Positions 3,314-36,824 of a DNA stretch of 64,000 bases are shown here, piece after piece (the stretch's first letter is position 1; each line of letters starts with the position of its first letter). Origin of the DNA: Calothrix sp. NIES-4105. GTDB lineage: Bacteria > Cyanobacteriota > Cyanobacteriia > Cyanobacteriales > Nostocaceae. The notes below the pieces were generated by a model that saw only the letters and a list, made by a program, of their open reading frames with translations, did not search any database and had not been told where the DNA came from. The position numbers and the translations under genes were made by a program. The stretch lies in contig NZ_AP018290.1 in assembly GCF_002368415.1 (NCBI RefSeq), positions 9,663,717-9,727,716 of the forward strand, given 5' to 3'.

Positions 3314-3543
3314 ATATTTTGTTGACCTCTTGTTGTAAAAAGCCACCATGAAAATTAAACGATTAACAGTTTTGAATTGATTTATCCATTTATCATGGCT
3401 TATATTAAAGATAGATTTATTACCGTGCTGCGTAATAAAGTTTAAGATTAAACATTACTACCAATCAATACTATTCTGAGTGAATAAAGTCGTAATCAGT
3501 ATTTCCGCCATTTTTATAATAAATTTCTTATAAAGAAAACAAA

Positions 3544-3568
3544 TGTAGAGACGCGATTTATCGCGTCT
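3544..3568. repeat. Dispersed TGTAGAGACGCG hairpin repeat, copy 1
   Basis: TGTAGAGACGCGATTTATCG continuing to CGTCT is an imperfect palindrome. The same element recurs at 13399, 20639, 27358, 36985 (degenerate) and 59074. It lies in the 426-bp gap between divergent genes at 3313 and 3740; nothing else recognisable is in that gap. Confidence 0.7.
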
Positions 3569-3739
3569 AAGAAGTAAGGTGGCTATGCCGCACCTACAAA
3601 ACAATATGAACAGAAATCAGTAATAACACGTATAAAAATAAAGGTCAGCTAAAACAGCATAGATAATTCAATAATTTTACGATTGACTAAAACTAATTGT
3701 GAAAAGTTAGATTATTGGAAAATATTTATTTTATAAAAC

Positions 3740-6310
3740 ATGAGATTTAATATGCGACATACGAGGCTCTACCGCTTTTGCCTCTCGTTATGTATAGGTT
3801 TGCTAGCTTACTTATTCTCACATTTTTTATTTTGGGAAGAAGTAGTACAAGCTGCCCAACCAAGTAGTCATCAAGAAATGCTTGGTTGGGTGGTTGCTTC
3901 CAACAATAAAGATACAACGCAGCAAGACAAAGCATTGCTCCAATACAACTCAGGGCAATACCAAGAAGCGATTAAACTTTGGAACGAAGCACTAAAACAA
4001 ACATCAGACAAAAAAACTCTAGCTACTCTCCATACAAATTTAGGTTCTGCCTATCGTCAAGTCGGTAATTTAGGGCAAGCAATTCAAGCTTGGGAAGAAG
4101 CAATTAAAATCTATAAATCGAGTCAAGACAAAGAAACAACTCGTTTACTTGCACAAGTGCTAACCGAACAAGCGCAAGCTTACAATGCACTAGGACAGTC
4201 GAGAACTGCAGTACCAATACTTGAATCAGCTATTGAAAAAGCCACTAAACATAAAGATTCTAATACCTTAGCCGCAGCTTATGGCGCCTTGGGAAATGCT
4301 CATTTGGCGCTAGGCGAATTTGATGCTGCCATCGCATCGAATAAAAAAAGCTTAGAATTTTCTAGAAGCCTAAAAAATTCAGCTTTCATTGCCACAGCTT
4401 TAAACAACCTTGGTAATGTATACAGCAACCGCTACCAACGTTATTCACTGCAAGCCAACTCAGTGCAACAAGAAGGTGATGATAAAGAAGTTGCGCGGTT
4501 AAATGGTTTAATGCAACAAGACTTGGTAGCAGCAAAACAAGCTTACGAGCAGAGTATTGATGCTAGCAGAGCTACTGGTGGAATTCAGCAAGCAAAAGCA
4601 ATGCTTAACAGAGCGCGCATCAGCGAGCTTTCGGAACCTTCTTCACAGGACAAAATTAATCAATACCGTTCTGAAGCGATGGTATTATTAGATTCCGTTC
4701 CTGATTCACGCTCCAAAGCATATGCCCTAATTAACTTGGCAGAAAGTTTAAGTGCTTCTGACTCGCAATTAAAAATCCAGAACTTAGAAAAAGCCATTGC
4801 AACATCACGACATCTATCTGACCAGCGAGCAGAATCTTTTGCCTTAACAGCATTAGGCGCCATTTACGAAAAAATGGGCAATTTGGCTAAAGCTATGGAA
4901 TTAACGCAGCAAGCACAATTCGCAGCACAGCAAGTTTACGCCGCCGACAGCCTTTACCGCGCGCAAGCACAAGCAGGACGAATATATAATGCTCAAGGTC
5001 AACGCGAAGCAGCTATTACATCATATCGAGGCGCCATTGGTTCACTGCAAAGCATTCGTGGAGATATTGCAGTTGCCAGCAAAGACCTACAATTTGATCT
5101 GCGCGACTCAGTAGAACCTGTATATCGTGAACTCATGGCACTGCTTTTAGAAGATGGGGAAAAAGTTAAAGGTCAAGGGGAATCAAAAATCAAAAATCAA
5201 AAATCAAAAATCTCCGAAGTGCTTCAAGTCTCCGAACTACTACAATTAAACGAACTGCAAAACTTTTTTGGAGACGAATGCGTAACTGTCGCGCGTAATT
5301 CTACATCAAGTGCAGAATTAGTAGATAGCAGCAAAGATACAGCATTCATTCACTCAGTTGTTCTCGACCAAAAAACTCATATATTATTACGCCTAAGCAA
5401 CGGTACTCTCAAAAGCTATCCAGTTGCAATATCTGCTACCGAACTAGCTAAAAACATCGACCGCTTGCGCTACACCCTCGAAAATATCTCCACCGATGAA
5501 TACCTTGCTGAAGCGCAAAAAATCTATGATTTGCTAATTCGTCCAATGGCAGATGATTTAGCGCAAGCTAATCCTAAAACACTCGTCTTCGTTAACGACG
5601 GTGTACTGCGAAACATTCCAATGGCAGCACTACACGACGGCAAACAGTTCCTAATAGAGAAATATGCTGTAGCCACTACGTTAGGATTAAATTTAACACC
5701 AAACAACACACCAATAACGCGCAATGCTAAAGCTGCGATATTTGGTTTAAGCGTAGAAATTCCGCCCTTCGCACCATTACCCAACGTCAAATTTGAGACA
5801 GAAGGCTTAGAAAAAATACTTGGTGGCAAACGCTTTATCGACAAAGAATTTACTCTCGCAAACCTGCAAAAACAAATCGATAAAAACGGTTATCCCATCA
5901 TTCACCTAGCAACTCATGGTAAATTTGGCGCCGATACCGAAAGCACTTTCTTACAACTTTACGACCAACGAGTATCACTTAATGAGTTCGAGGCAGTATT
6001 ACGTCGCAGTAAAAAACCAATTGACCTATTAACATTAAGCGCTTGCCAAACAGCCGCAGGAGACAGTCGTGCAACACTAGGTCTAGCAGGAGTAGCACTG
6101 CGCGCGGGAGTCCAAAGCACTCTAGCAACTCTATGGTTCGTCAACGACGCTGACACCGTACCACTAATTCAAAACTTCTACAAACAAATTCAAAAACCAG
6201 GAGTTAACAAAGCCGAAGCACTTCGTACTGCACAACTCAAAATCATTAACGACGCCAACGGACACCCAGCAATTTGGTCGCCATTTGTACTAGTAGGTAA
6301 CTGGCAGTAA
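3740..6310 (+). CDS. TPR-CHAT domain protein, secreted caspase-like peptidase (856 aa)
   Basis: An N-terminal hydrophobic segment (residues about 10-30) looks like a signal peptide or anchor. A second ATG at 3752 (MRHTRLYRF) is equally plausible as start. Residues about 60-440 are TPR repeats (for example TLHTNLGSAYRQVGNLGQAI). The C-terminal third is a CHAT domain, a clan CD caspase-like fold, with the expected catalytic dyad: His726 in IIHLATHG and Cys769 in LSACQTAAG. CHAT proteases act in bacterial protein-cleavage and conflict systems; the substrate here is unknown. Residues about 481-491 come from an ATCAAAA-type tandem repeat that expanded in frame between the TPR and CHAT parts. A decayed paralog is at 27397-29920. 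Its position beside DUF928 genes suggests a shared surface or secretion context (inference). Confidence 0.9.
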   Translation: MRFNMRHTRLYRFCLSLCIGLLAYLFSHFLFWEEVVQAAQPSSHQEMLGWVVASNNKDTTQQDKALLQYNSGQYQEAIKLWNEALKQTSDKKTLATLHTNLGSAYRQVGNLGQAIQAWEEAIKIYKSSQDKETTRLLAQVLTEQAQAYNALGQSRTAVPILESAIEKATKHKDSNTLAAAYGALGNAHLALGEFDAAIASNKKSLEFSRSLKNSAFIATALNNLGNVYSNRYQRYSLQANSVQQEGDDKEVARLNGLMQQDLVAAKQAYEQSIDASRATGGIQQAKAMLNRARISELSEPSSQDKINQYRSEAMVLLDSVPDSRSKAYALINLAESLSASDSQLKIQNLEKAIATSRHLSDQRAESFALTALGAIYEKMGNLAKAMELTQQAQFAAQQVYAADSLYRAQAQAGRIYNAQGQREAAITSYRGAIGSLQSIRGDIAVASKDLQFDLRDSVEPVYRELMALLLEDGEKVKGQGESKIKNQKSKISEVLQVSELLQLNELQNFFGDECVTVARNSTSSAELVDSSKDTAFIHSVVLDQKTHILLRLSNGTLKSYPVAISATELAKNIDRLRYTLENISTDEYLAEAQKIYDLLIRPMADDLAQANPKTLVFVNDGVLRNIPMAALHDGKQFLIEKYAVATTLGLNLTPNNTPITRNAKAAIFGLSVEIPPFAPLPNVKFETEGLEKILGGKRFIDKEFTLANLQKQIDKNGYPIIHLATHGKFGADTESTFLQLYDQRVSLNEFEAVLRRSKKPIDLLTLSACQTAAGDSRATLGLAGVALRAGVQSTLATLWFVNDADTVPLIQNFYKQIQKPGVNKAEALRTAQLKIINDANGHPAIWSPFVLVGNWQ

Positions 6311-6318
6311 ACCCTCTT

Positions 6319-6430
6319 CTTTTCCCCCCTTTGTGCCCTTTGTGTTCTTCGTGGTTTATCTCTTTAAACAACCACAAAGGCACAAAGGACACAAAGAAAG
6401 AGAAGAAAGAAAAGAAAAAGAAACTTGTCT
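6319..6430. repeat. MITE-like inverted repeat, copy A
   Basis: The arms CCTTTGTGCCCTTTGTG and CACAAAGGCACAAAGG are inverted around GGTTTATCTCTTTAAA, followed by a purine-rich AAAGAAAGAGAAG tail. A near-identical copy lies at 55183-55290. It sits directly after the CHAT gene stop, so it may also act as a terminator. Any reading frame through it is an artefact of the repeat. Confidence 0.8.
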
Positions 6431-6826
6431 GTACACGGTAGCGCATTTTCGGGCGGTAGTGGGGGGTTTCCTGGCGCCGCGAGTCCCGCAAGTGGCGTTA
6501 CACAGAGTAAGAGGGAACAGAGGTTTTTACAACTTAGTAATACAAAAGTACATTGATAATTTCTTAGATAAGAATGGGAATCATAAATCTAAGAGTTAAA
6601 ATTTAAAGATTATGAAAAATAAAAGAGCGCTTATTACTTTAATACTGCTAGTTATTAATTTTGATGATAACTCTGAAACTTTTTTGAATTCTTTTAAGTT
6701 AAAGCCATAGTTCGCAGTTGAGAAAATAATTAGGGCAAGCGCAATGCCTGCCCTAGATTTAGTATATTTAAGTATATTTTTTGACTCTATTACATTCGAT
6801 ATACCGCCAACAATAACCTTAAGTAT

Positions 6827-6931
6827 TTATTTAGCTTTAGGTACTGTCCAACAAATGCCCGAAGATAGTGTGATGCTTGCGATAGAAGCAATAATGATAA
6901 TTTGATAAACTTCACTTAAACTAAAAGTCAT
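6827..6931 (-). CDS. Small single-pass membrane peptide (34 aa), hypothetical
   Basis: ATG at 6931-6929 with a good Shine-Dalgarno, GAGGTAAAGACA directly before it. The 34-residue product has one hydrophobic segment (residues about 8-24, rich in Ile, Ala and Ser) and ends WTVPKAK. It is the only supported gene in the 940-bp stretch between 6310 and 7250; the remainder holds the repeat at 6319 and a small GGGCA hairpin near 6731-6753. The size and topology resemble small subunits of photosynthetic or NDH complexes, but I do not recognise the sequence and assign no function. Confidence 0.45.
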   Translation of the reverse strand: MTFSLSEVYQIIIIASIASITLSSGICWTVPKAK

Positions 6932-7249
6932 TGTCTTTACCTCAATTTTGAATTCCTAGAATATCTTCAACGGTTGCCAGCTATTTTGCTGATAAAATGT
7001 TGTGATTTACATTTATTTTATATGTGAGCGAAATCACACAATCATTCATCATCTACCATAAGTAAAACTTTTTTATTCAGAATCTACAAGTTAATTACTA
7101 TACAACTAAAGAATTTAATTTTGTAAACATTATTTACGTAATTATTGATTATCAGTGAGTAATCACTATCATTTGGTATTGCCTAAGTATTTTGGCAATA
7201 CAGGGAAAGGCATTACTTTGACAGAAGCGTATTTTAACTACTTCCAGCA

Positions 7250-8800
7250 TTAGAATGATTTGATTAGAAGTTTATCTTTTAATATATAATGAGTCCCGGC
7301 GCCGTTTTCAAATGTTTTTGTATAATATTTGCTAATTGGGGTGTCTACGTAATTGCGAATCATTCTAGATTTACAAAATAAAGCTTGTTCAGGACGGTAA
7401 TTTTTAAAGACTGAGATAAACTGCTCGCGCGTGATACTGTTTGAGTTCAGTCTGATATGCGATAATACAGCTACTTCTGGTGGAACACGTAAACCAGAAT
7501 AAAATGCATAAATAGGGCAGTCTGTAAATATCCATTGCGTATTTTGTTTATGCTTTAAAACAATATTCAGTAATTCAACTTTTTCTTGACTCTGTTGGAT
7601 ATATTTATTATTTTCCAGCGTTATAATACTGAGTTTGATTGGAATACAAATCAGCGATAATATTAATAAATAGGCTGGTAGTTTCAATAATGATATTTTG
7701 AAATTATTTGAAAGATTATTTTGCTTTGTTTGTAAACTTTTACGTTTGATTATATAATCAAGTGCTAATTTTACTCCATAGGTAGCTAGCCAAGTTAGCG
7801 GGATTGAAATTAATATATAATGATGATACCAAACAGGTTTATGAGTCAGGATAAGTAAAAAAGCTGTTAATAGCCAGATAATTGGAAAAGCTTTATTCCA
7901 TGCGCGTTTTTTGAAAATAATAATTATTGTCGGAATTGCAAAGAGTAGATAATCAAAATCTTGAAGCAAAAATAACAGTGTTAGTTTCATACTCTTTGCT
8001 AGAGTAAACCCTGTTTTTACACTTTCATCAAAATGAGAGTCAAATAGTTGTTCAAAACTCAATGAATTGTAAATCAAACCAATTATTATAAAAACACATA
8101 TACAAGAGGCTAGCCAAGAAATAACATCAATAAATATATGTTTTTTTGTCTGCCAAGAATGTTTTTCAAAGCTGATATTAATTAATTCTAATATAATCAA
8201 TGGAATTAAAAACGCAGTAAATAATTTTATTTGCAAAGACAGTGCTAAAAAAGTACCAGATATTGTAATTAAGCTTTTTGATAATTTCTGCCTATACAGC
8301 ATTAACATATAAATCGACATCATTGCCATTGCTAATGCTGGCTGCCCTATCATTGCAGAAACACTAACTCTCAGAAAATTGCAAGATATAGCTAATAAAA
8401 AGGCGCCATAACAAGCAGTAACGTTTCCTACATAAAGACGCAAAGTTTGGCAGAAAGACCAAATAAGTATTGTTGAAAACCCCAGGACTAAAAGCCGTGC
8501 AGAAAGTATCGACTCACCAAACCAACGGAACCAATATGCAAAAATAATCGTTGAAAGCGGTGGTTGGTCATTCCATATTTGTGTGTATAAAGCGAATCCT
8601 TGCAAGTGAAGAGAAGCTTTTATCAATTCAATTCCTTCATCACTTGAATCGAATTGAAACACTTGTTCAATCGGCATGAAGCAAATTGCAAAAATAAAAA
8701 ATGAGGCAGGTATTATAAAATTGAATAATAAAAAGCTTTTTAACTTATCTAAATTTATTTGATACATATAAATATTTTTATAATTTGCATAGTATGCCAT
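7250..8800 (-). CDS. GT39/ArnT-like membrane glycosyltransferase (about 516 aa)
   Basis: A polytopic membrane protein with roughly ten hydrophobic segments. The first loop carries FDSSDEGIELIKASLHLQG and WNDQPPLSTI, which fits the acidic motif loop of the PMT/ArnT (GT39/GT83-like) superfamily of lipid-linked sugar transferases. A soluble C-terminal part follows the last membrane span near residue 400. The likely role is transfer of a sugar from a polyprenyl carrier at the outer face of the plasma membrane; acceptor unknown. The start is uncertain: ATG at 8800 or 8767, or a TTG further out. It is very AT-rich (many Ile, Asn and Lys codons) compared with its neighbours, yet contains GGCGCC sites, so it is not obviously recent. 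Confidence 0.7.
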   Translation of the reverse strand: MAYYANYKNIYMYQINLDKLKSFLLFNFIIPASFFIFAICFMPIEQVFQFDSSDEGIELIKASLHLQGFALYTQIWNDQPPLSTIIFAYWFRWFGESILSARLLVLGFSTILIWSFCQTLRLYVGNVTACYGAFLLAISCNFLRVSVSAMIGQPALAMAMMSIYMLMLYRQKLSKSLITISGTFLALSLQIKLFTAFLIPLIILELINISFEKHSWQTKKHIFIDVISWLASCICVFIIIGLIYNSLSFEQLFDSHFDESVKTGFTLAKSMKLTLLFLLQDFDYLLFAIPTIIIIFKKRAWNKAFPIIWLLTAFLLILTHKPVWYHHYILISIPLTWLATYGVKLALDYIIKRKSLQTKQNNLSNNFKISLLKLPAYLLILSLICIPIKLSIITLENNKYIQQSQEKVELLNIVLKHKQNTQWIFTDCPIYAFYSGLRVPPEVAVLSHIRLNSNSITREQFISVFKNYRPEQALFCKSRMIRNYVDTPISKYYTKTFENGAGTHYILKDKLLIKSF

Positions 8801-21112: not shown

Positions 21113-22408
21113 GGTTCTTGCGTGTTTAACGTGCTAAAATGTTAGAGTATTTATTTAGCTTTTAAGTAAAATTAATTATGAAAAGAATCCTTACTCAACT
21201 ATTAAATTTGCCTGACGTAGTGGTAGAATCAAGTCTACAAGAGGGTTCTGTCTTAATTTTATCAGTAAGTAAAAAGACTAAAAGCGCAGTATGCCCGGAT
21301 TGCGGTAAAAAGTCTGAGCATCTACATCAAAATCAAAATTACTTAGTAAAAGATTTACCGATGGGAGATAAAGAAGTAATATTAAATGTAAACAGACGAA
21401 GATTTAAATGTAAAAGATGCCGAAAAACCTTTAATGAACAGCTTGATTTTGTAGGGGCAAGAAGGGGATATACGCATCGATACGCAGAAAATATTATTAA
21501 ACAACTTATTAGTAGTAATGTAAGTAATGTGGCGGAAAATAATGGATTAACCGATGAATAAGTTAATTCGATGCTTGAAGATGTAGCTAAAAATATATTA
21601 CCAATAAACTTAAACAATTTAAGAAGATTAGGAATCGATGAAATAAGTTTAGTAAAAGGGCAGGGCAAATATATTGTTGTACTTGTAGACATAGATTCAG
21701 GAAAATTAATAGGGTTAGTAAAAGAAAGAAAACAAATTGAAATAGAAAATGTTATGAAAAACTGGGGAGAAGAAGTTCTAGAACGAATAGAAGAAGTAAG
21801 TATGGATATGACCGGAAATTATAAAAGTTTAATCGATAAGATTTGCCCAAACGCTGTTGTCACGGTTGATAGGTTCCATGTTACCAAAATAATACATGAA
21901 GAATTAAACCAAGCTAGAATAGCAGAAAAGAAAACAGCATTAGAGCTAAACGTTAAGGATAGGGAAAAAATTTTTGATAGTTTAAAAGGGAATAAATTTA
22001 CAATTTTAACAGCAGAAGATAAGTTGACCGATAAACAAAAAGAAAAATTACATACAATCAAAGAAGCATCTCCTTTAATAGCAATGATGCATTCATTGAA
22101 AGAAGAATTTAAGGATTTATTCGATACAAGTGAAGATTCAGGAACAGGAATATTAAACCTACTCGATTGGTTAGAAAAAACTGAACCTTATTATCAGAAA
22201 AGTGTTAAAACAATTAAACGGTGGTTTGGAGAAGTAGCCGGATATTTTGAAAGAAAAACTACTAACGGTGTAGTAGAAGGAATTAATAATAAATTGAAGC
22301 TAATAAAACGAAATGGATTTGGCTTTAGAAACTTTCGCAATTTTGAAATTAGAGCTTTACTTTCTTGGCATTATAATATTAACTTAGCACGTTAAGTACG
22401 CAAGAGCC
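21113..22408 (+). mobile_element. ISL3-family insertion sequence, about 1.3 kb
   Basis: The terminal inverted repeats are GGTTCTTGCGTGTTTAACGT on the left and, read inward on the reverse strand, GGCTCTTGCGTACTTAACGT on the right; they continue to match into GCTAA. They bracket one transposase gene. The expected 8-bp target duplication is not evident (ACAAATAT on the left, AAGTTTAT on the right share only the last three bases). The element contains no GGCGCC site, unlike resident DNA, which fits a recent arrival. Confidence 0.85.
21178..22395 (+). pseudogene. ISL3 transposase interrupted by one in-frame TAA
   Basis: The first part (21178-21561) carries the ISL3 N-terminal zinc finger, CPDCGKKSEHLH and CKRCRKTFNEQ, and a helix-turn-helix. 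The second part (from 21571) is the DDE_Tnp_ISL3 catalytic domain: LGIDEISLVKGQGKYIVVLVD (first Asp in DE), VSMDMTGNYKSL, then VVTVDRFHV (second Asp), and GVVEGINNKLKLIKR with the Glu. Both parts are in the same frame: NNGLTDE, TAA at 21559-21561, then VNSMLEDVAK. A single CAA/GAA/AAA to TAA change explains it, so the lesion is a point nonsense mutation. Without readthrough the element cannot move itself, though another copy could act on its ends. Confidence 0.85.
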
Positions 22409-22508
22409 AAGTTTATCAGGGTCTTCTGATACCTTAAACCTGGTTCCATTAAAAGTTATGGTACGCATAAATAATATACTACCTAGTTTAATACTTTAAA
22501 AGTAAGTT

Positions 22509-24032
22509 TTATTTTGGGCGTTTAATTCCACCTCGACGTTTTACTTTGAAGCCGTATAAGTAAATCTCAGGCATATTAATACGCCCATCAGAACGGCTTT
22601 CAACAATTCCAAGTTGTAGCAGGTATTTTAAAACTTCCTCTGGTTTTGTAGTGGGAGGACGTTTACCAAGTTGTTCGCTCCATTCTGTAGCTGTAAGCGC
22701 TTCTAAAAACTTTGATTTTTGGATAGGAACTTCAAGACCCATTAAATTGATTTTTAAAGCTTCTAACCAAGGGTATTCTTCTTGGGCTAACTCTCTAATT
22801 CTATCAAGAGAGGTGTCCATTAATGCCCCTTGTAAATCTGATGGCATAAGTAATGCGGTTCCAGACATTTGTTCGTCTTGTTGGCTTAACTTATCTAATC
22901 TACGGTTTGCAGCTAAAGAAAATAATTTTAAAAAAGAACGTGGTGCAATTCTTCCTCCAGCATCTTGAAGATGGTTGGGAATCCAGCTATAAGTATAACC
23001 CTTTCTAGCATTGGCGCCCATAAATTTACCAATTATTTTCTCAATCATCGATTGAAAAAGTGATTCTTCGGGCGTTATAGTTATACCAAGAGCAGTATTA
23101 CTATCATTAATCAAGTTTGGAACTATACGTAAATACTCCGTCATTTCCGAACCGGAGTTTGCTAGACGTTTGAATAGTAGTTGATATAACCATAAATGTT
23201 TCCATTCAAGATTAATTTGATGCGCTCGTAGCTTAGAAGCATCAGGGAAACCTAAAAAATCTTCTCGAAAAAGGTCTGTACGCAAAAAAATCTTTGGTCG
23301 TATTCTTTCCCAGCGGCGCCATTTATCTAACCAGAATGCTAAAAGTTCGCGGATGGGAGTAGAAAGTTCGTTATAAAATGAAACTAATCTATCTAACTCA
23401 TCATAAGTTACAAACAGCCATTCATCAGCTTCAAGCAATTTTTCATCTAACAAATCTAAAGCATAATTCATCTTTTCAATTTCATGACGTACTAAAGGCA
23501 ACCATTCTGATAGCAATGGTAATCTATTTACTAAAGCTTCACGAGTTTCTAAGGATATTTCCTCAGCCCATTTTGTATTCAATGCTCCACTCGATGCTCT
23601 ACTTGAATGGCGAAGTATTATTCCTAACATTAATCCAATCCAGAAAGCACGCCAATCAATATTACTCGCGTTTTTCATCTGTGCTTCTACGGCTTCTGGT
23701 GTTGGAAATGTTTTTTCTTTCTGCCGAATACGACCAAAAGCAGCAATCCATGTAGTTTTATCTAAAGAGGGTAAAGCCCTAATCCCTAAATTTTGTACTA
23801 ATGTCGCGCGTCCGGTTTCAATAGCTAGTAAACGAAACAATTCTGTTTTACCTACACCTCGTCCTCCCAGTATTAATAGTATGTCCGGCTCTAGAGCGCG
23901 CCGATAGTCGGGAACAGGAAGAAAATTTTTGAGGAAAGCGCTATCGTCATTACTCTCATGTTCCGCTGTTCCTCTTCCCGGTGCTATATCTATAATTAGT
24001 TCGAGTAGTTTATTTTTATTAAAATTACTCAT
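22509..24032 (-). CDS. Large P-loop ATPase, third gene of HEPN/KGG/ATPase operon (507 aa)
   Basis: A soluble ASCE-type P-loop ATPase: Walker A GGRGVGKTELFRLLA near residue 57, Walker B WLFVTYDELDRL near residue 205, and a sensor-like Arg in KIFLRTDLF. A long helical C-terminus ends in a winged-helix-like segment (EEVLKYLLQLGIVESRSDGRI). The layout resembles STAND- or KAP-like regulators and the Sll1717-type P-loop ATPase group; I cannot place it exactly. Its ATG overlaps the TGA of the upstream gene (ATGA at 24032-24029), so translation is coupled. It may act as the NTP-driven switch or motor of a three-component system with the HEPN and ParA-like proteins (inference). Confidence 0.7.
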   Translation of the reverse strand: MSNFNKNKLLELIIDIAPGRGTAEHESNDDSAFLKNFLPVPDYRRALEPDILLILGGRGVGKTELFRLLAIETGRATLVQNLGIRALPSLDKTTWIAAFGRIRQKEKTFPTPEAVEAQMKNASNIDWRAFWIGLMLGIILRHSSRASSGALNTKWAEEISLETREALVNRLPLLSEWLPLVRHEIEKMNYALDLLDEKLLEADEWLFVTYDELDRLVSFYNELSTPIRELLAFWLDKWRRWERIRPKIFLRTDLFREDFLGFPDASKLRAHQINLEWKHLWLYQLLFKRLANSGSEMTEYLRIVPNLINDSNTALGITITPEESLFQSMIEKIIGKFMGANARKGYTYSWIPNHLQDAGGRIAPRSFLKLFSLAANRRLDKLSQQDEQMSGTALLMPSDLQGALMDTSLDRIRELAQEEYPWLEALKINLMGLEVPIQKSKFLEALTATEWSEQLGKRPPTTKPEEVLKYLLQLGIVESRSDGRINMPEIYLYGFKVKRRGGIKRPK

Positions 24033-25424
24033 GCCTCTACCTCGCTTGCATCTTGGTTCTTATCGAATGAGCGCCCAAACAGTCGGCAAAGTCTTCGTGC
24101 GAGTCCTTGATAAGGATCACCTGTTATTACCTTAACAAGTTCTGACAAACGATTGGCTTCTTCCTGGCTCTGGTCGCGTGCAAATAAAGCGATATCTCCT
24201 CGAAGGTCATCCTGCATTGGTAGTACTATTGGTGTAAAAGGTGCATCACTATCATTAATGTTCGGAACTACATCAGTATCGTAGTAATAATTTTCTTGAA
24301 AAATTTCATATGCTTTATCTGCAAACGCTTTTAATTCCTCGACCCTTCCGGTTTCGCGTAGTGCAGGCGCCATAGCATGAACTAGTAGCACGGGTAATTG
24401 ATATGAAGCCAATGGTCTTGCAAGTCTACGAATAACGTGAGTTATTCCAGCCCAACTTTGGCGAGACTGTGTACCAAATATAACGGCGCCGTGAGACAAA
24501 TCAGCTATGGCTAAACCACCAATATCATGGAATCCGGCTCTAGCATCTAGTAAAATAAAGTCTAAAGGTTTAGATGCACTTTCTAGTTCACCCAGCAAAC
24601 TGCGTAGAGTTTTAGGTAAATGGTCATCAACAATATTTTGAAAATCTAGCCTTGCCAACTTTTCTAAATAATTATCATCTACTGTACCAGCAGAAACTAA
24701 ACGCATAGTTTCACCATTATCGCCCAGTAGAGCTTGCTCGTTAATTGATAATATATGAGTTCTTAAAGACCAATTTTTCAACTGGATTTTTTTCTCTAAT
24801 AAATAATCAATAACACCAGAATTTTCCACAGTATCAGGAAAAAAGATTGTAGATAAACCTGGAGCTTCTAAATCGCGCATCAACTATGGCTATACGATGA
24901 CCACGACGTGCAAGTGTAATAGCACAAGCCACTAATCCCGTAGTACGTCCGGCGCCACCTTTGAAAGAAAAAAAAGTGACTATAGCTGGTTTACTTCCTT
25001 GGTCTACATATTTCTGTTCCCAAGGAGGACTACCTGCATCTTTATTAGTCCACGCTTTTTTGGCAACGTGACGTTCTAATACATACCAACGCGGTGAAAC
25101 AGTTTCATTGTCCCATTCAGCAGGAATTCTCTGCTCAATAATTACTTTAATTAAAGGTTTATAAGCATCCTGCTCACCTTGTGGCAACCAAATATCTTTA
25201 CCGTAGTAAGAACCAAGTTTTTGAGACAAAACATTTTCTAATGTAGTAACGTCCGTTGGTTGAGGTTTAAAAGCATCATCATGCTCTAAATAAAGGCGTA
25301 TTACTCCATAAACATCACGTATAATAGTTATAGACTGGAGATTTTGAGTCCAGAGCGATAATATTGCCCCTTCCTGAAAGCACTCCTGCACCTTAGTAAA
25401 GGTTTCACCGAAACTAATCGCCAT
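24029..25424 (-). pseudogene. KGG-motif ParA/MinD-like ATPase, split by a frameshift
   Basis: The N-terminal part (25424 to about 24880) ends VTFFSFKGGAGRTTGLVACA then HRIAIVD, a deviant Walker A (KGG-x-GR-T-T) of the ParA/MinD class. In another frame the protein resumes at once as DLEAPGLSTIFF and runs for about 275 residues, including LDARAGFHDIGGLAIADL (the switch region) and a C-terminal helical domain. Between IAIVD and DLEAPG the DNA has four bases (GCGC) where three are expected, so one inserted base breaks the gene; position about 24873-24882. Rejoined, it would be a single protein of about 465 residues, as I recall for KGGVGR-motif variant ATPases. No slippery heptamer is present. 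It could be a true lesion or a base-calling error. Neighbours are spaced 12 bp upstream and overlap 4 bp downstream. Confidence 0.7.
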
Positions 25425-25436
25425 TTTAAAAAAAAC

Positions 25437-25853
25437 CTAAATTGAAATTCTACCGTCTAAAATTAGCCCAGGAACAATCTCAAGATAAATTTCCTCCGCG
25501 CGCTGAACTGCTTGTTTAGTTTCAAGTTCGCTCCAAAGTCCCGATTTTGCATAACGTCGTTCTGGGTGGAATTGTTCTAGTACGGTTCCCATTGTACGAT
25601 TAGCAGGAAGCTGCATATCAAGTGCTGGGTACATAAAACGTAACCTTTCCATTGCTTTACCTTGAAGTTCCGCTAAATCATGACCGTATTTTTTTGCTGA
25701 TGCAGAATCAATATATACGGATACTAACACTTTAAATGAGCATTCCACAACGTAACCAGCAAGGTAGACAGCATTGTCCCATCGCTGCTTATCAAGTAAG
25801 CATTGTGCATCACTTAAATGCCTTGAGGCTGCTTGTTGAAAATCATCAACCAT
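25437..25853 (-). CDS. HEPN-domain protein, first gene of the operon (138 aa)
   Basis: An all-helical protein of HEPN type: an N-terminal helix ASRHLSDAQCLLDKQRWDNA, then AVYLAGYVVECSFKVLVSVY, the typical second-helix signature with VE-C-xxK, followed by KKYGHDLAELQ and a C-terminal helix after HPERRYAKSGLWSELE. Many HEPN proteins are RNases of toxin-antitoxin, CRISPR and abortive systems with an R-x4-6-H active site; that motif is not obvious here (the HDL and RRY segments are separate), so it may be a non-catalytic binding HEPN. The start at 25853 is 12 codons before the domain. It leads the tight HEPN/KGG/ATPase cluster. Confidence 0.7.
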   Translation of the reverse strand: MVDDFQQAASRHLSDAQCLLDKQRWDNAVYLAGYVVECSFKVLVSVYIDSASAKKYGHDLAELQGKAMERLRFMYPALDMQLPANRTMGTVLEQFHPERRYAKSGLWSELETKQAVQRAEEIYLEIVPGLILDGRISI

Positions 25854-25922
25854 AATAATATGAGTTATTTGCTTCTTAGAAGTGGTTTAACATGGTAGTT
25901 ACATAAAATACCTAGTACATCT

Positions 25923-26437
25923 ATGGCAGCACTCAAACCTTGGTATAAAATTGATGGATTAGTACCGCGTGAAGATTTGCGGCAAGGGAAACCGCGCATA
26001 GGCTTCGGAGTTTGCTGTTCATTTAGATAAGGTACGTTCAGGAACTGCCCCTTCTGATTATAAAGAGCCGGAGAGATTTTTTGACAGAACTTATTTAACG
26101 CGGTGACTTTAACTGACCCGCCAAAACTACTTCTGGTGAAACCAAAGTGATTGATGGAGGAGTTTCTTATAAAACAGATACTTCCAGCAAAACCATAGAA
26201 CCCCCTATTCAAACAAACACAGCGCGCGTACTCAAGTGGACAGGTGTAATTACCACTCAAAAATGGATGATTTTTTATACAAAAGTACTAAGTAAATTTG
26301 CAATCGCTCAAAACTTGAAATTGACATTAAAAGTTTCTATAAGCGTCGAAGGAGATATTTCATCGCAGAAAATAGAAGATACCAAAGTAGCATTACAGGA
26401 ATTAGGATTGGATAGTGATATTAAGTTAGAGAACTAG
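25923..26437 (+). pseudogene. DUF499 ATPase remnant with large internal deletion
   Basis: Three blocks of a DUF499 protein (normally about 1000 residues) survive. Block 1, 25923-25985: ALKPWYKIDGLVPREDLRQG. Block 2, in another frame after an in-frame stop: ASEFAVHLDKVRSGTAPSDY and EPERFFDRTYLTR, to about 26105. Block 3, from about 26117: TKVIDGGVSYKTD and a C-terminal WTGVITTQKWMIFYTKVLSK, ending 26437. Block 2 to block 3 jumps over most of the protein, including the ATPase core. DUF499 proteins occur with DUF1156 methylases and helicases in defence-type islands, so this is probably the scar of a lost defence locus lying divergent to the HEPN operon. Confidence 0.75.
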
Positions 26438-27396: not shown

Positions 27397-29920
27397 TTAT
27401 GTCCAGTTTCCTAGAAGTACGTATGCTGCCCAAAAGTACGGTGATTTGTAATCGGGATTTTTTAAGATTGCTACTTGCGCGCGTCGTAGTGCTTCGGCTT
27501 TTGAAATACCTGTTTTGTTAGCTTGAACCAGTTCGTCATAAAATTGACTGATTAGCTTGGCTGAGGCATCGTCGTTAACTTGCCATAGTGTTGCTATTGT
27601 ACTACGGGCGCCACTTCGCACTGCAACACCAGCGAGTCCAAGTGCAGATTTTGTGTCACCTGCAGCTGTTCCGCAAGCGCTAAGTACTAAGAGTTCAAGC
27701 GAATTATCGCGCGATAGTTCAACTGTTTTTAATACTCCGCTTAGGTCGTTAACTTTAATTTTGTCATCCCAAGTGACAATGAAAGTTTCTTCTGCGTTTG
27801 AGCTAAATTGACCGTGTGTTGCTAAATGTACTATGGGGAAGGGAGCAGTTGAAACTCGGCTTTTAAATGCGGAGTTTGTAAAGTTTTTATTAAATAATAC
27901 TTGAGATGGTATTTCCGACTGTATATTGCTTACTTCTTTTGCGACGCTTGGTAATGCCGAAAAGTTTTGTCGAGCTTCACTTAACCCTGCTACTAATGCT
28001 CCTAAACGCTCTTGTCGCAGTGAACGTGGCGCCAGTAATTGCAGTCCTGGTGTGAGGGCAATGCTATACTTTTCAATCAGAAATTGCTTACCATCGTATA
28101 ATGCTGACATTGGTATATTCCGCAAAACACCGTCTAAAACAAATACTAGTGTTTCAACTTTGCTGGTTGCAATATCATTTGCAGCAGGGCGAATTACCAA
28201 ATCATACATTGTTTTCAGCTTCGGCAACATCAAGTCAATAATTGCACCTGTTTGTTGTCTAAGGCCGTCATTTAAACGTGCTGCTAGTCGTTCAAACTCT
28301 TTATTATTGATTTTGGTTTTGTAGTAGCGAAACTCACGGTTATCTTTTGAGTCGGAACTGGCGCCTAATTTGGGTAAGCTGGCAATAACAGCAAGCTGGT
28401 CTTTAAGAATAATTGGGTAAATAACTGCTGCTTTGGCATCAACTTTATCTATCTGTTCAGGTTTGGCAGTCAAGCAAGCTTCGCGAAAGAAGTTATCGAG
28501 TTCAACTAACTGTAATCCTTCAATTACGTCACGCGCGGTTTTGAGATTATCTGTATTCTCTGAACCTACAAGCAATTCTACAAGTTCGCGATGAATAGGT
28601 TCAACAGCATTACGGAAAGAAAACTGTACGTCAGGACTTGCGGCTGCTAAATCTGCTCGTAATGATTTAATAGTTCCTACGGCTTCTTTATAAGCAGCAA
28701 TCGCAGTATCATTCTTATTTTGCGCTTTTGTTACCCTTCCTAACTGCCACTGCCACAAATACGCAATGTCAAGAGCATTAACTTGTTGAGCGAGTTGAAG
28801 TGCTTGTGAAGTCAGCTTTTCTGCTTCTTTCCACTGCTTCGTTTGTTCGTAAACACTGCCAAGACTACCTTCTGCATAAGCGAGTGTACGGGGGTTGCCT
28901 AATTCCTGCGCTTGTTTTATCGCAACTGCTAAAATATTTGCAGTATCGCGCGTTAAATCATTAGAACGCATCCGCATCATCGTTTGAGCAAGATTTATGC
29001 GCGCGTCGATAGCAGTTTGACTTTGTGGTAATGCTTCAACTTCTTTTCTGACCTCTGGCAACAAGCTTTTAACAACATCTTGGTAAGCTAAGTTGATTTA
29101 ACTGTGCTTGAACTTTAATTGCGGGTGCAGATGCAGCTTGCTTATAAAAGTTTAGCGCAGCTTGTGTATCAACTTGTATGCGCTCTCTGTCATCTATAGT
29201 ACTATCGAAGTTTATCTGCGCGCGGGATGTATTTCCAAGACTAAGTTGTGTCAGCGCGATAGTTTCAGGTAAATTTAACTTTTGGGCAATTACTAAAGTT
29301 CGTTCTAAAACAAGTTTAGCTTGAGGTAAATTACCAATTACCCGTAATGAATCTCCTAAAGTTCGCAATGCTGCTGTCTCAGGTGATGCGGGGACTTTTT
29401 CTAAAGTGGTTTTTAGGTCTTGTTTAGTGTTAGATAAATTTAATACTGATGCCAGTAACTCAACCGCACGACGATATAATCCTAAGTTTTGTAACGCTTT
29501 TGCTTGTTTGACTTGACTTACAAGCACTTGCTTAGGATTATTTTGCTGCTTATATAAAGATGCTGTACGCTCCCAAGTTTTCAACGCTGCTTCCGCTTGC
29601 CCGCGCGCGAGTAGTAACTCACCTTGGATATCATAGCTTTGTGTTAATGCGGATATTTGTCCTGGTTGTGAACTGCTACTTAATATGTTGATACTCTCGT
29701 TGATTGAAGTATCTGCATCGTTCCATTGTCCTAATTGTTGGTAAGATAGCGATAAGTTGCTTAGACTAATCGCTTGTTGAATTGGGTATGAAGCTATTTG
29801 ATAAGCTTTCGCTGCTTGTTGAAATAGTTTTGCTGCTTCAGAATATTTACCTTCTTTATATAAAGTGCGCGCGGTTTGTTCGAGAGAGGCGCCGGATTGT
29901 GTTATAGATACAGTGGATGT
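27397..29920 (-). pseudogene. Second TPR-CHAT gene, frameshifted and without an intact start
   Basis: Reading from the right: SGASLEQTARTLYKEGKYSE and following TPR units run in frame from about 29920, with no ATG and a TGA at about 29940; a possible signal-peptide start in the same frame is at 30076, beyond that stop. The frame continues through 29584 to QLNQLSLP, where a one-base shift near 29080-29090 breaks it; the next frame resumes with YQDVVKSLLPEVRKE. The CHAT domain is otherwise intact, with IVHLATHGQF (His) and LVLSACGTAAGD (Cys). Total coding length, about 840 codons, matches the intact paralog at 3740-6310. One frameshift plus one upstream nonsense codon imply loss of function, or errors in the sequence. 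Confidence 0.75.
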
Positions 29921-36182: not shown

Positions 36183-36824
36183 CTACTTGGTAACGCTGAT
36201 TAATTGCCCCAACCGCTTAAAAATACTAAGAACTATATACAAATCATTCCCTGGATTAAATATATAGAATAATCGAGATAATGCGTATTTTGCTGTTCCT
36301 TGCTTAACTAACTTCACGAATAGGAAACTACCACCGTTAGTAACTAAACCGTATATCGGTTTCTCAGAATCAGAAAGTGCTAGCATATAAGATAGTAACT
36401 GCGGTTTTCCCACTTCCACTGAAAAAGCAGCTTGCTTGGACTCAATAACTACCACTGTTAACTGTTCAGACAATACCAATACGTCTATATTGCCTTTAAC
36501 GGTTACTCCGTCATCATCAGCAGAAATTTGTACCGACTTTTCGGACTTAATATGAAATGGTGAGAGATAGAAGTCCGCTAAATCTAAAAGATGAGATATC
36601 ACAACCATCTTAACTGTGTTTTCTAGTAAAGGAGGATACCTGAGTAAATTTGAGTAGCTTGCCTTTACTCTATCAAGCCGCTGTTTCTCGGCGCCTGTAA
36701 TTTCTGGTAAGTTGTCTTGCCACTCTCGGAAAAACTGCTCATCCTCAACCCATTGAAGTCCAAAATTTGTTTCCAACGTAAGCATTGTAATATCTTTTGC
36801 TTGTACAGTTGGCGCTTGAGTCAT
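36183..36824 (-). CDS. PD-(D/E)XK nuclease-like protein, restriction-subunit-R type (213 aa)
   Basis: The C-terminal half shows the PD-(D/E)XK core of HsdR_N-like proteins: GNIDVLVLSEQLTVVVIESK (Asp, then Glu-x-Lys) followed by a helix with PQLLSYMLA and GLVTNGGSFLFVK. The N-terminal half is helical. There is no helicase part; such short proteins are abundant in cyanobacteria and annotated as restriction endonuclease subunit R, with no proven activity. It stands alone, no methylase or specificity gene nearby. No Shine-Dalgarno is seen before the ATG at 36824. Confidence 0.7.
   Translation of the reverse strand: MTQAPTVQAKDITMLTLETNFGLQWVEDEQFFREWQDNLPEITGAEKQRLDRVKASYSNLLRYPPLLENTVKMVVISHLLDLADFYLSPFHIKSEKSVQISADDDGVTVKGNIDVLVLSEQLTVVVIESKQAAFSVEVGKPQLLSYMLALSDSEKPIYGLVTNGGSFLFVKLVKQGTAKYALSRLFYIFNPGNDLYIVLSIFKRLGQLISVTK

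Follow-up and report, generated by a model that had tools for sequence, protein, structure and literature searches.

We analysed a 64,000-nucleotide stretch of the Calothrix sp. NIES-4105 genome (contig NZ_AP018290.1, positions 9,663,717 to 9,727,716; hereafter the window), which carries on its minus strand a tight array of genes for a HEPN protein (A), a MinD/ParA-type ATPase with a KGGxGR Walker A motif (B) and a second P-loop ATPase (C). Judged from sequence comparisons, this locus reads as a PDC-M28-type cassette, mobile and made of three genes, in a decayed state; its most likely role is anti-phage, and we hold this reading with moderate confidence. A first-pass annotation, made from the letters alone, had known of no named system with this set; this was ruled out by PADLOC-DB 2.0.0, which lists all three proteins as candidate PDC-M28 A, B and C. 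The window genes match these three models and stand adjacent on one strand in the order A-B-C, with B frameshifted. By these matches, the window locus is a diverged, broken member of a cassette that is conserved and mobile and that a database already lists as a candidate. To the known candidate, our analysis adds a fusion variant, exchange at a chromosomal site, carriage on viral contigs, a count of embeddings in type 2 bacteriophage exclusion (BREX-2) operons and a HEPN-T type site.

According to the parts of the source covered, PDCs are putative candidates from a 'guilt-by-embedding' approach, and most of those in the core set await validation (PMC12988326, 2026). PDC-M28 itself probably stems from the Payne 2024 preprint. 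In the openly licensed PMC literature, with bioRxiv outside the search, we found no paper naming PDC-M28, Sll1717 or KGGVGR. The models fit the BREX-embedded copies far better than the window copy, as seen for C (3e-165 in Thiodictyon and 3e-158 in Streptomyces, 5e-80 in the window). The cyanobacterial clade has diverged, and in fused B-C proteins a single chain matches both the B model and the C model.

In the window, A (25437..25853, 138 aa) and C (22509..24032, 507 aa) are intact open reading frames (ORFs). Gene B is split into a first piece (24834..25424, 196 aa), which carries the N-terminal domain and the Walker A motif, and a second piece in another frame (24029..24883, 284 aa), which carries the remaining ATPase domain and the C-terminus. 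A and B are separated by 12 bp (25425-25436) and B overlaps C by the four letters ATGA (24029-24032). The spacing and the overlap in the first-pass annotation, its HEPN protein and its 507-residue P-loop ATPase were thus all borne out, and its ParA/MinD ATPase with an odd KGG-x-GR motif was right as to the motif and wrong as to a single gene. The first 182 residues of the first B piece align with relatives and its tail is out of frame. The cyanobacterial and Paenibacillus relatives of B are single continuous proteins of 451-472 aa with no break; programmed frameshifting is therefore unlikely, and the break could be a sequencing error. As sequenced, the window holds no intact trio: with B in two frames, this copy cannot make an intact B protein. 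Positions 22505-26099 are 92.5% identical over 3595 bp to plasmid Cal7716_p2 of Calothrix sp. PCC 7716. There the trio is intact, and divergent to it lies a DUF499 gene of full length, after which comes a helicase gene ending in NOV_C. The window locus therefore has the look of a plasmid-type island whose chromosomal copy has decayed, and this decay is of an ordinary kind.

The ATPase assignment of B is drawn from both pieces. The first matches PDC-M28B at positions 1-164 (E 3.3e-19) and, on its own, NF047398 (AAA_KGGVGR) at E 4.8e-12 with 46.6 bits, under the 90-bit cut-off; the second matches PDC-M28B at positions 166-412 (E 2.9e-32) and passes the same NF047398 cut-off with 111.3 bits. The KGGxGK Walker A of ParA/MinD partition ATPases is present in none of the 34 aligned B proteins: its second lysine is arginine in all 34 and the signature lysine is kept, KGGxGR being invariant in B. 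The model of the trio B protein is poor (predicted local distance difference test score, 55), so statements on its fold rest on a fused B-C protein, whose B part is predicted to take a MinD/Soj-type fold, the VIA-align alignment mainly covering residues 123-406. No match of the N-terminal domain of B to a solved structure was established. Between split and fused B proteins these domains have no profile match, yet their predicted elements follow in a similar order.

Protein C has the Walker A sequence GGRGVGKT and matches the Sll1717-family ATPase model NF047389 (97.9 bits, cut-off 75) and PDC-M28C (E 5.1e-80, positions 1-479 of 480). Its match to the ORC-CDC6-like family PF24389 reaches 19.9 bits, under the gathering cut-off of 27; the same family is precomputed on many of the 120 fusions listed, and Foldseek paired the fused model with 2qby_A (E 3.3e-6). 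By sequence, C is a P-loop ATPase whose Walker A is invariant and which has some similarity to Orc1/Cdc6. The winged-helix end that had been proposed for it is putative: the last elements in the model of a fused relative (three helices followed by two short strands) are only consistent with it.

Protein A scores 27.6 bits against PF05168 (cut-off 22) and E 1.5e-13 against PDC-M28A, and has no match to PF18737 at E 0.1. It carries E-C-x-x-K, H-x-L and R-Y. Among 58 A proteins, 27 of which were picked by E-C-x-x-K, E-x3-K occurs in 58, a histidine in 58 (by a loose pattern: H with a hydrophobic residue one or two positions after it, no more than 75 residues away from E-C-x-x-K) and R-Y/C in 56. 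A thus keeps residues of a proposed alternative HEPN active site. It resembles the HEPN-T (PF05168) proteins with an alternative histidine, of the AF0298/AbiV-like kind, in the E-x3-K of the second helix region and, in the parts of the description covered, in a conserved histidine before the motif and in a motif arginine that is kept while the histidine of Rx4-6H is missing. Unlike these proteins, the A family is tied to two ATPases, and no MNT partner was noticed in the regions viewed.

Genes in the order A-B-C are found in four phyla (Cyanobacteriota, Bacillota, Pseudomonadota and Actinomycetota). On GTDB contigs, 11 of 16 loci with C are complete and in order (Paenibacillus included), one is cut by a contig end and four are degraded. 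C matched in 35 of 386 cyanobacterial genomes, at 44 places, and flanks were examined at 40 of these, the window included. Twelve belong to the split class (nine with A-B-C intact, the window with its frameshift, one that meets a contig edge and one in decay). The other 28 are B-C fusions, mostly of ~890 aa, with a HEPN-like ORF bearing E-C-x-x-K directly upstream in 27 cases and a fragment of one in the remaining case. Since these surveys share loci (L017 and L057 being one and the same sequence), their counts are not summed. Some counts in this work are inflated by near relatives (L166/L172, 98.7% identical over 4.7 kb; L014/L059, 97%; L016/L019, 96%; L100/L113, 92%). Across 23 chosen trios, correlations between the distance matrices of the three proteins are 0.98-0.99, and within subsets (13 cyanobacterial trios; nine plasmid trios) they are 0.86-0.93: A, B and C diverge in step.

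The same unit is found on mobile elements. C relatives occur in 20 plasmid records; the 18 regions viewed hold 11 A-B-C trios, one A with a fusion, five C genes alone and one locus cut by the record start. A tyrosine recombinase or integrase gene stands immediately upstream of the trio in four plasmids, of which two are related to each other. In L100 and L113, related IncF plasmids of Enterobacter, the trio directly adjoins a tyrosine recombinase gene. In IMG/VR, 19 distinct predicted viral contigs carry a C relative, with 13 A-B-C trios (two of them near-identical there), one A with a fusion and five in which C alone was detected. A scan of 109 neighbouring ORFs on 14 of these contigs found two to three ORFs each matching the PHROGs families terminase large subunit, Q antiterminator, NinB, integrase and repressor, all among the top 25 of 141 families.

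In plasmids of Streptomyces, Thiodictyon and Sphaerotilus, the trio lies inside a BREX-2 operon. Matches to BREX-2 PglZ (1e-20) were found in 6 of 72,556 plasmid records, and three of these six carry the trio. With 12 trio plasmids, this co-occurrence has a hypergeometric probability of 7e-11, an approximate value given that records are not independent and that the PglZ query came from a trio plasmid. More generally, the trio sits inside or beside BREX type 2 and DUF499 'BREX-related' systems. The ATPases of these systems are described as STAND/ORC-Cdc6 AAA+ proteins, and the HEPN-ParA-ATPase trio goes unmentioned in the parts of that paper covered (PMC12839542); window C has a weak ORC-CDC6-like match, below the cut-off.

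On cyanobacterial chromosomes, one site proved variable. In 16 genomes of one genus, obgE (PF01018) is followed by an intact trio in three (G072, G048 and G386), a decayed trio in one (G064) and a fusion in opposite orientation in one (G149), an arrangement that G074 of another genus has as well. In two genomes, a short gap of 0.2-0.6 kb separates obgE from an HGSNAT_cat gene, and in three, other genes come before HGSNAT_cat, including HsdR-N and PIN domains in G103; in the remaining six, the second flank lies beyond the sequence covered. As trio or fusion can follow obgE in related genomes, the split and fused forms occupy the same site. The obgE-HGSNAT_cat loci are L064, L065, L071, L074 and L150-L162, with PIN/HsdR-N in L150 and a pentapeptide protein in L160. 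Taken together, A-B-C, or A with a B-C fusion, is one conserved unit that occurs on plasmids and viral contigs, within three BREX-2 operons and at a chromosomal site of variable content.

The first-pass annotation had proposed to look for enrichment beside known defence genes; the PADLOC scan of neighbours is coarse and gives a hint only. In that scan, all 195 ORFs beside trios (101 + 94) matched 262 and 74 families at 1e-10, against 20 families matched by the 99 of 196 control ORFs scanned; these counts are of overlapping models, not proteins, with the 25 commonest families per set listed, and several matches come from generic methylases and from kinase-like, transposition and TnpB-like proteins. 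Control positions were the analyst's round numbers, and 97 control ORFs lie outside the scan (every one from L124-L133, plus a long ORF at the edge of L114 and another at that of L117), as do 227 ORFs that neighbour fusions. At one locus, L016, the trio is flanked by a run of three genes (3382-7937), for a methylase-Mrr protein, HEPN_MAE_28990 and GmrSD_N; homologues of the last two occur in L014, L019 and L059, which together with L016 make two pairs of near relatives.

The best reading of these data is an ATPase-gated HEPN abortive-infection cassette, with putative functions in defence and RNA cleavage. Since B and C fuse in nature, we infer that they form one ATP-dependent complex. C would act as a DNA- or infection-sensing AAA+ protein and B as a dimerising nucleotide switch, and the resting B-C complex would keep the HEPN protein A inactive. 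Infection, or the disabling of a neighbouring system such as BREX, would flip the switch, and the freed A might then cut or block RNA so that the cell stops. A more specific version, which we put forward tentatively as possible, sees a distinct immune device borne by phages and plasmids: its effector, a HEPN-T protein whose active site is non-canonical, would be gated by a MinD-type dimerisation switch linked to an AAA+ sensor of the Orc1/Cdc6-like kind. It would serve BREX-2 in different phyla as a recruited fail-safe, and in cyanobacteria the fusion of the ATPases would have streamlined it to two genes. Either way, an anonymous database candidate becomes a testable hypothesis about which protein senses, which switches and which kills. 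Constructs are at hand in the BREX-2-embedded copies and in the fusion of B and C found in nature, and this family would allow a mutational test of the alternative HEPN site that was put forward in 2013.

Several observations weigh against this abortive-infection reading. C occurs with A or B not detected in 5 of 18 plasmid regions, all from Streptomyces, and in 5 of 19 viral contigs. A search of 50,697 annotated phage records with query P0004 gave no match, though alignments found the IMG/VR contigs. ParB-like matches were made by 2 of the 109 ORFs neighbouring the unit on viral contigs. Five of ten cyanobacterial neighbours scanned with Pfam are metabolism, transport or chemotaxis proteins, and a Cpn60/GroEL gene, whose identity was checked by Pfam for L085 only, lies near one fused subclade at ten loci (L072, L076, L078, L081, L083, L085, L086, L088, L093 and L094), which looks like vertical inheritance at a fixed address. 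The link to defence is thus weaker in cyanobacteria. Finally, the Rx4-6H motif is absent from window A and stands at the conserved arginine in only 2 of 58 A proteins; this rules out a canonical HEPN RNase, and A may not be an RNase at all. The Streptomyces plasmids with C alone are L106, L107, L108, L110 and L111; L107 and L108 have conjugation-type genes around C, and on Streptomyces plasmids two of the C-alone genes have ParB-type genes in their vicinity.

The rarity of Rx4-6H would suit a non-catalytic HEPN adaptor, with B-C acting directly on incoming phage or plasmid DNA by loading, silencing or a replication block and with no RNase involved. The resemblance of C to Orc1/Cdc6 and the fold of B, that of DNA-partition ATPases, point the same way; E-x3-K, the histidine and R-Y/C, at the frequencies given above, look instead like kept active-site residues, and we consider the adaptor unlikely. 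It is also improbable, in our view, that the unit is a toxin-antitoxin or plasmid-stability module, with A as the toxin and the ParA-like B (with C) as the antitoxin, kept by addiction and not by defence. Toxin-antitoxin action was proposed for another HEPN-ParA dyad, that of MAE_18760 (Anantharaman 2013, PMC3710099), and complete modules stand in 12 of the 18 plasmid regions viewed. In the parts of that paper covered, the MAE_18760 dyad likewise has a HEPN gene beside a ParA/Soj-type ATPase, and a toxin under ATPase control is proposed; the trio differs from it by a PF05168 HEPN instead of PF18737, by two ATPases instead of one and by its KGGxGR Walker A. Against addiction, two large ATPases would presumably be costly for an antitoxin, and three modules lie inside BREX-2 operons. 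Moreover, loci L090 and L091 retain A and B but have no C half, and in L066 a shortened A persists although B is lost; active addiction should punish such losses.

A housekeeping unit for partition, cell division or transport is very improbable. The fold of B and database names such as ParA/MinD would favour it, as would the Cpn60/GroEL neighbour and the ParB-like genes near viral-contig units and C-alone genes. Yet C occurs in only 35 of 386 cyanobacterial genomes, and at the obgE site the unit is absent, decayed or replaced in sibling genomes. On these two grounds, partition or housekeeping was dropped as the main reading despite the ParB-like neighbours; the BREX-2 contexts also speak against it, as does the replacement of the canonical Walker A lysine by arginine in each of the 34 B proteins aligned. 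The first-pass annotation had said that its conflict-system reading would fall if homologues were not co-located or the trio was linked to partition or transport. In four phyla, cyanobacteria included, homologues of the three genes do lie together in one fixed arrangement, and intact trios have no recurring partition or transport partner; the ParB-like neighbours on viral contigs and the ParB-type genes near two C-alone genes cut the other way. With the plasmid, viral and BREX-2 links, its view of a conflict system is thus supported in part, and what falls away is the unnamed set and the intact copy.

The wider genome holds two more relatives, L090 and L091 (C1, ~2.45 and ~5.85 Mb), which are HEPN+KGGVGR loci related to two fused subclades. 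They align to fusions only over residues 1-421 and 1-401, with the C half missing, and no further C match was found in this genome. With B frameshifted in the window, all three modules are therefore incomplete as assembled, and the unit in this genome is dead or partial. A BREX-2 PglZ query gave no match in the whole genome, in a search without a positive control. Among nine neighbouring window ORFs scanned, there was no ParB partner and no BREX core gene (PglZ, methylase or BrxC/PglY), the DUF499 fragment being the only trace.

This fragment (25923..26434, plus strand), divergent to the trio, is the wreck of a DUF499 defence gene that the first-pass annotation had seen. By tblastn, it keeps residues 1-24, 27-62 and 855-957 (96, 89 and 90% identical) of the 957-aa DUF499 protein of Calothrix plasmid L010 (PF04465, E 6.2e-21), so that both ends are kept and the middle is lost. 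The adjoining insertion sequence (IS), also seen before, encodes an ISL3-family transposase in two ORFs of 127 and 274 aa (21178..22395, plus strand; PF14690, PF13542, PF01610) next to the end of C. Across this IS lies the tail of a gene that stands beyond the trio on L010 (20713..20841, plus strand); it matches L010:13364-13492 with 90.7% identity over 129 bp by blastn and 88% over 41 aa by tblastn.

Farther away, positions 36210-36800 encode a protein 37% identical to the product of this same gene beyond the trio on the Calothrix plasmid, where the record names it DUF450; it has no Pfam match at 1e-5. A CHAT protein with tetratricopeptide repeats appears as two adjacent minus-strand ORFs of 555 and 171 aa (27397-29584), perhaps another interrupted gene.

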